Source: Bacteroidota bacterium (lineage in GTDB: Bacteria > Bacteroidota > Ignavibacteria > UBA10030 > UBA8401). Taken from it: 64,000 nt of DNA. The notes beneath the pieces were generated by a model that was not told the origin of the DNA, searched no databases, and saw nothing but the letters and a program-made list of their open reading frames with translations. The position numbers and the translations under genes are program-made. This document shows positions 30,427 through 34,835 of this stretch, one piece after another. The stretch lies in contig JAUXTU010000052.1 of assembly GCA_030679145.1 (NCBI GenBank), positions 1 to 64,000 of the forward strand. Reading direction: 5' to 3'. Each line of letters starts with the position of its first letter. Positions within the stretch are counted from its first letter, which is position 1.

Positions 30427-30494
30427 AAACCATCTCAAAAATGGCGGTCATTGCGAGAGAGTCCCGATGTATCGGGACGACCGAAGCAATCTTT
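30427..30494. repeat. Dispersed CATCTCAAAAATGGCGGTCATTGCGAGAGAG...CCGAAGCAATCT repeat
   Basis: Closely matches the left half at 4026-4110; internal TCCCGATGTATCGGGA hairpin. Confidence 0.75.
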
Positions 30495-30647: not shown

Positions 30648-30765
30648 AACAATACGCGTCATTCCCGCGACTTGTCCGTCATGCTTCGCCTTTTGGCGGA
30701 AAACGGGAATCCATTTAATTAAGGAGTAATAAAAACGTCATCCCGAACTTGTTTCGGGATATAAA
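30648..30765. repeat. Two dispersed GTCATCCCG/GTCATTCCCG-type hairpin repeats
   Basis: GCGTCATTCCCGCG...GGCGGAAAACGGGAATCC and CGTCATCCCGAACTTGTTTCGGGAT. Confidence 0.6.
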
Positions 30766-30784: not shown

Positions 30785-30951
30785 TATAGCGTAGCTTCGG
30801 CTGCTGTCTTCCAGTAAAACACTACATTTACAATAGCAAAGACACAGAAACGAAGGTGCGCCCCTACACGGGGTGCGCTTCGTTTCATCTTTTGCTTAGG
30901 GAGTAGTGTCCCGACTGGAAGGGTGAGATGAATGTCGCACCCTTTTTTTTT
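30785..30951 (+). ncRNA. Candidate structured non-coding RNA with intrinsic terminator (6S-like outline)
   Basis: Stems CTTCCAGT/ACTGGAAG, ACACTAC/GTAGTGT, AGCAAAGA/TCTTTTGCT, GAAACGAAG/CTTCGTTTC, apical GTGCGCCCC/GGGGTGCGC (wobbles), TTCG-loop hairpin at the 5' side, then AGGGTG...CACCCT-T9. Confidence 0.65.
30920..30951 (+). terminator. Rho-independent terminator AGGGTG...CACCCTTTTTTTTT
   Basis: 6-bp stem followed by T9. Confidence 0.7.
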
Positions 30952-31025
30952 GGGAAAGACTTTTTGGCTAAAAGAAAAGCCAATTAAGACACACCGGGGC
31001 TCTTGACTAAACGGAGCAACTGTAA

Positions 31026-34000
31026 ATGATTACTATTGGTAATCTGCGAGAATTATTAACATCGTTAAATTTCGAGAATACTGGAAATATATTCTCTAAA
31101 TATTTTATCAATTCAGATTCTGAATTAAAAGTAGACTTTGGTAGGGAATTATTAATCTATCCAGAAGGAAAAGGCTTAATAGTTAATGAACATCAAACGT
31201 GTAATTTTTCAGCAAATGAAAATTTTGTTGTTTTTGAATGTGTACATCGACTTTTAGAGAAAGGATATAAGCCAGAGCATTTAGAACTTGAACCAAAATG
31301 GAAGATAGGTCATGGCGCAAGCGGAGGAAGGGCTGATATATTAATCCGAGATAATTCTAAAAAACCATTATTGCTAATAGAATGTAAAACAGAAGGAAAA
31401 GAGTTTAAGGACGCTTGGAAAGATACACTAGTCGATGGTGATCAATTGTTTAGTTATGTCCAACAAATTCCGGATACGGAATTTCTCTGTCTTTATACCT
31501 CAGATTTCACGAGTGCAGTAGATTATAGTTTTACCTCTTTCATCATATCCCACAAAGACAACGCAAAAATATTAGAAGACAATAAATCTCTTAAGTCTTT
31601 TGATAAAGCAAAGAATGTCAAAGATCGATTTTTAGCTTGGAAAGATACATATAAGTTAGAATTTACAACCAAAGGGATATTTGAACTTAATATTCAGCCT
31701 TATCAAATAGGTAAAGATAAATATACGATAGAGGATCTTTTACCAGTTGATGTTAAAAACAAAGAAGGTAAATATCATGAATTTCGGACAATTTTACGTA
31801 AACATAATGTCTCAGGCAGAGAAAATGCTTTTGATGTTTTGGTAAATTTATTTTTGTGCAAAATAGTTGACGAATCTCAAAACCCGAAAGATTTAAAATT
31901 TTATTGGAAGGGCATTGCATACGATAATTATTATGATCTAATAGATCGGCTTCAAGAACTTTATAAAATTGGGATGGATAAATTTTTAGCGCAGGAAATT
32001 GTTTATATAAGCAATAAAGAAATTGATGAAGCATTCTGGACTGTAAAACAAAAGCGCAATGCAACAAAACAGCAAATAAAAGAATATTTTCGGAAGTTAA
32101 AATTTTTTACGAATAGTGACTTTAGTTTTATTGACGTTCATAATGAGCGATTATTTTATCAAAATGCTAAAGTACTTTTAGAAATTGTTCAGATGTGGCA
32201 AGATTTACAGCTCAAAACTACCGATCACAATCAATTTCTGGGAGATATGTTTGAATTTTTCCTGGATAATGGGATTAAACAGTCTGAAGGGCAATTTTTT
32301 ACACCGCTACCCATATGTAAATTTATATTAATGTCTCTTCCAATAGAGACTATAATTAAATCACAATCCGAGCAACCTAAAGCAATTGATTATGCATGCG
32401 GAGCAGGACATTTTTTAACGGAACTAGCTTCTCAAATTACACCTTTTGTTAAACTCTACAGACAATCAGAATTATCGGAGTTCTACAAAAATATTTACGG
32501 AATAGAAAAAGAATATCGCTTATCTAAAGTTGCTAAATTATCATCGTTTATGTATGGGCATGAGGGAATCGAGATTCTACATCATGATGCTCTTGGAGCA
32601 CATGGAAAAATAAAAGAAAGCAGTTTTGATATATTAGTTGCCAATCCACCATTTTCCGTTGAGGGTTTTTTGGATACTCTCTCCGAAGAAGAACGGAGTA
32701 AATACATTTTAACTGAGACTGTTTCTGATATAGCAAATAACAGAAATATACAATGTTTTTTCCTTGAACGAGCAAAGCAATTACTTGCACCTAATGGCGT
32801 AGCAGGAATTATTATCCCATCATCTGTCTTAAATAATTCAGATGGTACACATATCGCAACACGAGAGATATTAATACAATACTTTGATATTGTAGCACTT
32901 GTTGAACTTGGCAGTGGAACATTTGGCAAAACAGGAACGAGTACAATTGTGTTATTTATTAGAAGAAAAGCACAGAAACCAGAACCAGCAAAGCATTATT
33001 TGGATCGTGTGAATGATTGGTTTGAGGGTATAAATAAAGATAAAGAATCTGAAGTTTATCAAGATTTATACTTAATTAAAAAATATTGTGACCATATCGA
33101 AGTATCTTTTGATACATATCTAACATTAATGAATGGATATCCATCTGATAAGTTATTGAAACAAGATATATTTAAAGAATACGTTAAAGAATTTGATGCT
33201 AGTGCAGAAACTAAAAATTTGAAAACAAAAAAATATTTTAAAGAATTAACTTCCAAAGAAAAAAAATCTGAGATAGGTAACAGGTTTAACATTTTTTTGC
33301 AAAAAATTGAAAAAGATAAATTATATCATTTTATACTTGCCTATACAAATCCCCAAAATGTGTTAATTGTTAAAAGTCCGTCTGATACGAAAGAACAAAA
33401 AAACTATTTGGGTTACGAATGGAGTGCGGCGAAAGGCAGTGAAGGAATTAAATACAACAACGGAAACACAGTAGATCAAATAATTACACCATTATTTGAT
33501 CCTCAAAACAGAAATAATGTGAACAAAATAAATTATTTTGTTCAACAAAATTATCTAAACGCAGGGATCAGTAATGAATTTCCTGAAAGCCTAAAACCAT
33601 TTATTGATCTCGTTCCCCTTGTAGATTTACTAGATTTTTCACGAAAAGATTTTACAAAAACTATTTCGGTAAATCCCAAAAAAAATATAATTATTAAAAC
33701 TAAATGGGAACTGGTAAACATGGAAAATGTGTGCAAAATTGTTAGAGGAGCATCGCCACGTCCTATAGATAAATATATTACAAAGGAAAAGGATGGCATA
33801 AATTGGATAAAGATAGGCGACGTTAATGTTAATGATAAATATATTACTCAAACTGGAGAAAAAATTACTATAGAGGGTGCTAAAAAATCTCGTTTAGTTA
33901 AAGTTGGTGATTTTATTCTTTCGAATTCAATGAGTTTTGGTAGACCTTATATATTAAAAATATCGGGATGTATTCATGACGGCTGGTTACTAATGACAGA

Positions 34001-34835
34001 TTTTAGATATGATCTTGATAAAAATTATTTATATGAAATATTGTCTTTTGAAGATACTCAACGACAATTTATCGAAAGTGCCGCTGGTGGTGTAGTTAAA
34101 AATCTAAATATTGAACGTGTAAAATCGACGAGAATATCAATCCCACCAATTTCAGTTCAAAAAACGATAGTAAAAGAATGCAAAGTAATTGATTTAGAAT
34201 GTGAAAAAGCATATAAAAATATTAAGCTTTTGAGGAGAAAAAATGAAGAAAAGGTTAAAGCATGGTTCGCTAATAATTACGAGATGAAAAAACTTGATGA
34301 TTTAACAGAAATAAAAAATGGAGGTACACCCGATACAAATAATCCATTGTTTTGGACTAATGGTTCTATATTTTGGGCAACTTTAGTAGATACAAAAAGT
34401 AAATATCTTTTCTCAACCCAAAGGAAGATTACCAAGGAAGGACTGGATAATAGTAGCGCTCAATTGTTGCCTATTAACACTGTTATATTTTCTAGTCGAG
34501 CAACTATCGGTGAAGTGACAATTACAAAAGTTGAAACATGCACGAATCAAGGTTATAAAAATTTTATTTGTAATCCTGATTTATTGCATTATGAATATTT
34601 ATACTATGTTCTAAAAAACTCTGTTAAAGAAATTGAAAAACTGTCTTCTGGAATGACTTATAAAGAAATTAACACAAAAAGTATAAAGAATTTCAGAATC
34701 CCTACTCCGGCTCTAAATGTCCAAAAACGTTTAGTTCAAGAATTAGAGACGGTTGAAAAACAGATTACAGTGGCTGAGCATATAATTCAAGAATCTCTAA
34801 AACGCAAACAAAGTATAATGAGGAAATATTTATAA
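31026..34835 (+). CDS. Single-chain restriction-modification-specificity enzyme (Type IIG/IIB, AloI-like architecture)
   Basis: N-terminal nuclease motif GRADILI...LLIECK; N6-MTase GQFFTP, YACGAGHF, VANPPF; two HsdS-like TRDs (WELVNMENVCKIVRG... and YEMKKLDDLTEIKNGGTP...); no helicase. Confidence 0.88.
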   Translation: MITIGNLRELLTSLNFENTGNIFSKYFINSDSELKVDFGRELLIYPEGKGLIVNEHQTCNFSANENFVVFECVHRLLEKGYKPEHLELEPKWKIGHGASGGRADILIRDNSKKPLLLIECKTEGKEFKDAWKDTLVDGDQLFSYVQQIPDTEFLCLYTSDFTSAVDYSFTSFIISHKDNAKILEDNKSLKSFDKAKNVKDRFLAWKDTYKLEFTTKGIFELNIQPYQIGKDKYTIEDLLPVDVKNKEGKYHEFRTILRKHNVSGRENAFDVLVNLFLCKIVDESQNPKDLKFYWKGIAYDNYYDLIDRLQELYKIGMDKFLAQEIVYISNKEIDEAFWTVKQKRNATKQQIKEYFRKLKFFTNSDFSFIDVHNERLFYQNAKVLLEIVQMWQDLQLKTTDHNQFLGDMFEFFLDNGIKQSEGQFFTPLPICKFILMSLPIETIIKSQSEQPKAIDYACGAGHFLTELASQITPFVKLYRQSELSEFYKNIYGIEKEYRLSKVAKLSSFMYGHEGIEILHHDALGAHGKIKESSFDILVANPPFSVEGFLDTLSEEERSKYILTETVSDIANNRNIQCFFLERAKQLLAPNGVAGIIIPSSVLNNSDGTHIATREILIQYFDIVALVELGSGTFGKTGTSTIVLFIRRKAQKPEPAKHYLDRVNDWFEGINKDKESEVYQDLYLIKKYCDHIEVSFDTYLTLMNGYPSDKLLKQDIFKEYVKEFDASAETKNLKTKKYFKELTSKEKKSEIGNRFNIFLQKIEKDKLYHFILAYTNPQNVLIVKSPSDTKEQKNYLGYEWSAAKGSEGIKYNNGNTVDQIITPLFDPQNRNNVNKINYFVQQNYLNAGISNEFPESLKPFIDLVPLVDLLDFSRKDFTKTISVNPKKNIIIKTKWELVNMENVCKIVRGASPRPIDKYITKEKDGINWIKIGDVNVNDKYITQTGEKITIEGAKKSRLVKVGDFILSNSMSFGRPYILKISGCIHDGWLLMTDFRYDLDKNYLYEILSFEDTQRQFIESAAGGVVKNLNIERVKSTRISIPPISVQKTIVKECKVIDLECEKAYKNIKLLRRKNEEKVKAWFANNYEMKKLDDLTEIKNGGTPDTNNPLFWTNGSIFWATLVDTKSKYLFSTQRKITKEGLDNSSAQLLPINTVIFSSRATIGEVTITKVETCTNQGYKNFICNPDLLHYEYLYYVLKNSVKEIEKLSSGMTYKEINTKSIKNFRIPTPALNVQKRLVQELETVEKQITVAEHIIQESLKRKQSIMRKYL

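Follow-up and report, generated by a model that had tools for sequence, protein, structure and literature searches.

Between gpsA and a restriction-modification (R-M) gene, the 64,000-nucleotide stretch of DNA analysed here (referred to as the window; contig JAUXTU010000052.1 of the Bacteroidota assembly GCA_030679145.1) contains a segment that can fold into one long interrupted hairpin. An initial annotation had described positions 30785-30951 as an undescribed structured RNA with the outline of 6S RNA. Is this segment an RNA gene of its own, or does it belong to the gene that follows? All window coordinates below refer to the + strand.

Fold A and its family

The helices proposed in the initial annotation, CTTCCAGT/ACTGGAAG, ACACTAC/GTAGTGT, AGCAAAGA/TCTTTTGCT and GAAACGAAG/CTTCGTTTC, were all located exactly where it had placed them, and the sequence likewise has the apical stem with its G-U pairs, the TTCG hairpin and, followed by a T9 run, the terminator hairpin. 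The strand from 30786 to 30946 has a minimum free energy of -71.2 kcal/mol, compared with -45.8 +/- 3.9 kcal/mol for dinucleotide shuffles (z -6.5; 0 of 200 shuffles were as good), and the whole leader (30785-31040) folds with a z of -6.0. ARAGORN detected neither a tRNA nor a tmRNA in the window.

Regions downstream of gpsA in related genomes had been suggested as a source of orthologous sequences. None of the close relatives carries the RNA at this locus, and in four gpsA neighbourhoods other genes come next and there is no R-M gene. A synteny comparison therefore fails, and a genome-wide search was needed. A BLAST search of the own genome with the element returned the self-match only; the element is thus no high-copy repeat. 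In 100 relatives, BLAST gave scattered matches in other families of the order, the best of them in genome G027 (93% identity). The related loci have the same architecture, with stems that are changed yet complementary and a downstream gene close by. Since MAFFT alignment combined with RNAalifold misaligned the family, iterated covariance models were used instead: R1, built from seven members, the broader R2, and R3 as the third iteration. At the level of the order, R1 detected members in 18 of 98 genomes, 30 in all, and one of these was a second copy in the own genome; with R2, 79 of 397 genomes of the class proved positive, and with R3, 60 of 399 genomes sampled across the phylum. The window element itself matches R3 at 30786-30946 with 119.7 bits (E 1.2e-23; E-values of the models built here are rough). 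An exhaustive search of ten chosen genomes gave 0 to 16 copies each. The own genome has three, i.e. the window element and two diverged copies found by model, and not the many unlinked copies that would have marked a repeat. These two lie on contig C61 (L171:5121-5286, +), where the copy precedes a type III R-M operon, and on contig C34 (L200:2187-2352, +), where a copy of the general type precedes small genes. Pattern matches in G199 and G043 were rejected as members, as they have the 5' motif only and no credible model match. No plasmid matched the window element. The plasmid search gave one match for a distant member, a member-like stretch on the mobilizable plasmid pB3-10 of Rhizosphaericola mali (NZ_CP044017.1; L273:3001-3122), which is unannotated and lies about 90 nt before a gene for a hypothetical protein. 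Among viral contigs, none has the 5' motif of the R-M type and two have the kissing-loop motif.

In an alignment of 71 members, 40 of 44 pairs show two-sided changes, so that the compensatory changes called for in the initial annotation are indeed found; the members include close relatives, and the counts are of non-independent events. Fold A contains 812 two-sided cells (210 in shuffles), and 96.3% of its cells are paired, a share that falls to 36-50% if the partner slides by 1-3 columns; the alignments were fitted to the fold A structure, which inflates its paired cells, but the margins over shuffles and slides are very large. G-U cells outnumber A-C cells 297 to 31 across the family. The structured molecule is thus the + strand RNA.

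Fold A consists of the hairpin P1, a long rod (P2-P3-P4-P5) and the compact terminator hairpin P6 before the U-run. P1 (30791-30804, GUAGC-UUCG-GCUGC) is paired in 94% of cells over the 71 members. In P2, 30808-30815 pairs with 30914-30921, with 97.9% of cells paired and two-sided changes in all six counted pairs; the 3' strand, too, rests on family covariation. P3 joins ACACTAC (30819-30825) to 30903-30909, and here 99.3% of cells are paired and again 6 of 6 pairs have two-sided changes. The long arm P4/P5 (30835-30896; AGCAAAGA..., GAAACGAAG..., apical GUGCGCCCC/GGGGUGCGC) is found both in the window fold and by family covariation, and the terminator-like P6 (30920-30951, AGGGUG...CACCCU followed by T9) is evident from the sequence and corresponds to helix 7 of the family covariation analysis. 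What had been annotated as a large asymmetric bubble is not idle. It contains the arms of two small hairpins, H1 (GUAAA/UUUAC, 30814-30831), whose stem is 4-6 bp long in 66 of 71 members and is of the GAAAA/UUUUC type in the family, and H2 (GGGA/UCCC, 30899-30912), which is fully paired in 61 of 71 members with the stem variants GGUA/UACC, GGCA/UGCC and GGGA/UCCC. As the two strands of P3 are the loops of H1 (5' strand, 30819-30825) and H2 (3' strand), the P3 helix can also be a kissing loop.

A scan of the window with Rfam 15 gave no family at gathering score, and scans of 31 member loci (11 + 20) gave no family match at the element; this includes 6S, 6S-Flavo and Bacteroidales-1, the families suggested for comparison. 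In E-value mode, two members produced chance-level matches only. Among these was a Bacteroidales-1 score of 15.9 bits, on the opposite strand and at a lax threshold. A 6S-Flavo search found no match in the own genome, but none in control genomes either. A 6S RNA would be expected as a single housekeeping copy that is kept in close relatives, whereas here there are three copies, none in seven genomes of the same genus and up to 16 elsewhere. The 6S interpretation is therefore abandoned: there is no useful 6S score, the copy number ranges from 0 to 16 per genome, and the RNA is the leader of specific genes. The description as an undescribed structured RNA, on the other hand, is supported by the fold z of -6.5, the compensatory changes and the absence of an Rfam match. 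Judged from its sequence, the window element is a member of a covarying RNA family that has no match in Rfam.

Leader position and the restriction-modification subfamily

Downstream of the RNA, the nearest gene shares its strand in 91 cases, has the opposite orientation in 4 and is missing in 3; for the nearest gene upstream, the counts are 46 (same) and 36 (opposite). The Bacteroidota -7 promoter box TAnnTTTG is found within 70 nt upstream in 29 of 97 members (19 of 446 control windows), and its distance is nearly constant (23-34 nt) in most of the phylum-wide members that have it. This strand bias and the upstream box identify the RNA as a 5' leader, and going by gene arrangement the family as a whole is the 5' leader of the downstream gene. 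Outside the R-M subfamily, 13 of 64 scanned downstream genes carry a Por secretion tail, and others encode PAS kinases, RibD-like proteins and sigma-70 region 4 proteins; lipoproteins, response regulators, SusC-like receptors and a Crp-like protein were added by sequence judgement. ORFs were called mechanically. In one genus elsewhere in the phylum (L254, L259, L261, L263, L264, L265), the RNA lies 230-375 nt before SusC/SusD-like gene pairs, and a TAnnTTTGC box is located about 25 nt upstream of it.

In the window, the downstream gene (31026-34835) encodes a type IIG restriction enzyme-methyltransferase of 1269 aa with specificity domains (PADLOC REase_MTase_IIG, 1433.8 bits, residues 1-1269; Pfam N6_Mtase, Methylase_S and HSDR_N_2). 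The extent originally given, 30785-30951, does cover a structured segment but is too short, as conserved parts reach the start codon of this gene at 31026. The window leader is one of 19 that form an R-M subfamily marked by the 5' motif GCGTAGCTTCGGCTRCTGTCT, about 16 of which precede R-M genes; the R-M association that had been offered as an alternative to 6S fits these data. Behind these leaders are found genes of type IIG (window, L124, L133), type I (L127, L129, L131) and type III (L130, L132, L135, L137, L138, L139, L171) systems and other methyltransferases (L125, L126). The exceptions are followed by other genes (a lipoprotein gene at L185; L084/L134) or, at L136, only by a short gene without family assignment at the contig end. 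At L134 (5908-6956, +), mobile mystery proteins A and B (TIGR02612/TIGR02613, the latter a Fic protein) are encoded about 1.3 kb after the leader, and there is no R-M gene. Between the window and G027 the leader is 93% identical, yet the two enzymes behind it have no meaningful similarity; the leader is thus a portable module in front of unrelated enzymes. A short gene (RYDQHGRLLSDAEFIQR..., 124-145 aa) with no Pfam or NCBIfam match comes first after the leader at L128:10187-10600 (-), L133:11803-12174 (-) and L136:4753-5187 (+), and at L128 a type III restriction enzyme follows further downstream; the short gene perhaps encodes an R-M accessory protein.

Two elements close to the start codon extend the R-M leaders. 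A 3' segment, AAGACACACCGAAGCTC, which is complementary to the leader 5' end, is found only in the R-M subfamily and is followed by a hairpin just before the ATG. In the window, the segment near the ribosome-binding site (RBS) is AAGACACACCGGGGCTC (30986-31002), which is complementary to the leader 5' end and resembles the 5' strand of P4/P5, and the hairpin GCUC...GAGC (30999-31017) covers the GGAG of the RBS. The hairpin has compensatory variants in relatives (GCTCCG/CGGAGC, GTTCTG/CAGAAC, GCTCTG/CAGAGC, GCTCTT/AAGAGC), and almost all R-M members keep the motif ahead of their start codon, despite a spacer between P6 and the RBS segment that varies and contains REP-like inserts. REP-like palindromes are also located between gpsA and the window leader, at 30430-30480 (GTCATTGCGAG...), 30660-30715 (CGTCATTCCCGCG...) and 30737-30765 (CGTCATCCCGAACTTGTTTCGGGAT), and similar ones occur in the spacers of related R-M leaders. 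At L083/L124, L090 and L101, a degenerate second copy of the leader 5' end is present about 90-190 nt upstream (TAGCGTAGCCCCG...REP...AACTTCGGCTGCTG), with a REP-like insert replacing the UUCG loop.

A second, competing fold

The view of the segment as a single hairpin is correct with respect to fold A, but it misses a second, competing fold that is also conserved. In this fold B, the rod is split between two partners: its 5' side pairs with the 5' end of the RNA, and its 3' side with the 3' side of the terminator. The result is two long hairpins, each tipped by one of the small hairpins H1 and H2, the tips of which can kiss. The pairings were evaluated by exchanging partners across members (2000 permutations), and in a second version only within subgroups; five negative-control segment pairs were null in the cross-member test.

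Hairpin II (30870-30943) pairs the P5 3' strand with the P6 3' strand (GGGUGCG/CGCACCC and beyond), has H2 inside and excludes both P5 and P6. Its z is about -12.2 to -12.5 (within-group -10.4), and the duplex energy is -15.8 kcal/mol within members versus -11.7 kcal/mol across members (0 of 2000 permutations). In the cross-member permutation, this signal is stronger than that of P6 itself, and the portion of hairpin II outside both P5 and P6 reaches a z of -9.7 alone. When the P5-3'/P6-3' pairing was forced, P1 and its tail were found to pair with the P4/P5 5' strand. This is hairpin I (30789-30861), in which GCGUAGCUUCGGCUGCUGUCUU (30789-30810) pairs with AAGACACAGAAACGAAGGUGCGC (30839-30861) and H1 forms the tip (z -11.7; within-group z -7.9; 0 of 2000 permutations). 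The two helices are also supported in a set of 27 phylum-wide members from which the idea had not been derived (z -9.1 for hairpin I and -6.7 for hairpin II). As they are member-specific, also in this independent set, selection appears to maintain two global folds that exclude each other. For an extension of hairpin II into P2/P4 (125-148 x 162-182), which the window itself can form, the family-wide tests gave no support (z -2.0; within-group z -0.9). One subtype (L231, L234, L235, L238; G350, G286, G364), whose strands resemble GGGGCGUUUUCC/GGAAAAUGCCC, has an alternative helix that far exceeds the terminator stem in length.

Refolding places fold B about 4 kcal/mol above the fold A optimum in the window, and on the family average fold A is 13 kcal/mol more stable than fold B in isolated RNA. 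Hairpin II likewise ends at the U-run, and the sequence therefore does not distinguish which of the two folds would terminate transcription.

A putative switch and its place among known RNAs

We think that the window segment probably forms the 5' leader of the restriction gene and belongs to a family of regulatory RNAs, spread over the Bacteroidota, that are bistable, act in cis and switch expression. Both folds, the leader position, the terminator-like hairpin, the R-M linkage and the RBS hairpin can be read from the DNA, whereas we infer the switching, its direction and its signal. During transcription, hairpin I of fold B could form first, and a cellular signal would decide whether fold A displaces it before the polymerase passes the U-run; depending on this, transcription would stop or continue there. 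The R-M subfamily may have a second step, in which the freed 5' end of the read-through RNA would pair with the segment beside the RBS and open the RBS hairpin, while fold B would occupy the 5' end and keep translation off. It is conjecture that the leader could in this way postpone restriction, or hold it down, once the system has entered a new host.

What might select the fold? A bistable leader could be a riboswitch in the strict sense, with the kissing-loop junction binding a small molecule or second messenger. Junction and kissing loops are conserved with near-invariant flanks (GAAAACUGGUAAUUUU, GGUAUACCAGUACC) across the phylum, and several copies per genome precede varied genes, as is the case for second-messenger riboswitches. 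However, the downstream genes (R-M, secreted T9SS-type, SusC/D, PAS kinases, sigma factors, RibD-like) share no pathway, so that no ligand can be proposed from them, and we regard this sub-case as tentative. Its most far-reaching form, a new Bacteroidota riboswitch class in which one small signal acting through the junction and the two folds controls surface and secreted proteins, signalling genes and, in a specialised mobile version, every R-M type, is a shade more doubtful. The varied downstream genes would also suit an RNA that recruits or binds a protein (RNA polymerase, a NusG-type antitermination factor or an RNA chaperone) or that senses temperature or transcription speed via its two folds; the comparable stability of these folds in the window, the great stability of the 5'-terminal UUCG hairpin and the terminator are in line with such a role. 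On the protein side, though, the loop-loop contact and the junction are conserved beyond the needs of a simple protein-binding hairpin, and no adjacent regulator gene is common to the loci. We take these options together as possible rather than probable.

The gene arrangement bears on two other explanations. A stand-alone small RNA, 6S-like or trans-acting, could end at P6 and be upstream of genes by chance, and both its own good terminator and the promoter-like boxes just upstream in part of the family would be expected of it. Against it stand a same-strand bias of 91 to 4 downstream compared with 46 to 36 upstream, a subfamily linked to R-M genes, conserved elements that reach the start codon and the absence of a 6S match; we consider this explanation improbable. 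Still less credit is given to a mobile repeat or DNA-level element (MITE, REP or attC-like hairpin) that travels with the R-M genes. The patchy distribution with transfer between families of the order, the mobility of R-M genes and the REP-like palindromes nearby would agree with it, but the genome contains only three diverged copies, compensatory changes maintain the stems, the G-U pairs are strand-specific, and the element has a leader position.

On this sequence evidence, the leader RNA is previously unlisted and has a switch-like position at the start of R-M operons and, elsewhere, before genes for secreted proteins, receptors and regulators. It is an old question how mobile R-M systems restrain their toxic half on entering a new host, and a sense leader RNA that is reused before unrelated systems of types I, IIG and III would offer a new and easily tested answer. 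A structured leader with two conserved folds that is present in about 15-20% of the sampled class and phylum genomes and absent from Rfam also points to an unrecognised signal that may tune surface proteins and defence together.

Our literature search, which left most subscription papers outside its range, found no description of this leader. Reviews of R-M regulation discuss C proteins, methyltransferase repressors and antisense RNAs and do not mention riboswitches (PMC3874152, PMC12707154); in PMC12707154, leader, untranslated and transcription termination are not mentioned either. The antisense RNAs of EcoRI and Eco29kI and the C proteins resemble the leader as non-coding control of R-M expression, but the former are antisense transcripts that arise within the genes and the latter bind DNA (PMC3874152, PMC12707154), whereas here a sense 5' leader is common to unrelated R-M types. 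In the main text of the Flavobacterium psychrophilum transcriptome study, with which the comparison was made, 64 structured 5' regions are reported, single entries of which may overlap our family, and Flavo-1 (RF01705) is an unexplained RNA motif common in Flavobacteriaceae that matches in either orientation (PMC9723704). Flavo-1 overlaps with the leader family in taxonomic range and is likewise unexplained in function, but none of the scanned members matches it and our family is leader-oriented.

With 6S RNA, 6S-Flavo (RF01685) and Bacteroidales-1 (RF01693), the family shares a long interrupted rod with a terminator; it differs in that it has no match in the Rfam scans, is multi-copy or absent, and lies before specific genes. 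Similar in organisation are transcription-attenuating riboswitches and leader attenuators, which also combine a 5' leader, two exclusive folds and an intrinsic terminator-like hairpin, and kissing loops are a feature of the purine, lysine and cobalamin riboswitches. We therefore suggest that the leader may work like an attenuating riboswitch. It differs from these in having no known ligand or Rfam family and a very mixed regulon that includes three R-M types, and in that its alternative helix uses the 3' strand of the terminator and not the 5' strand.
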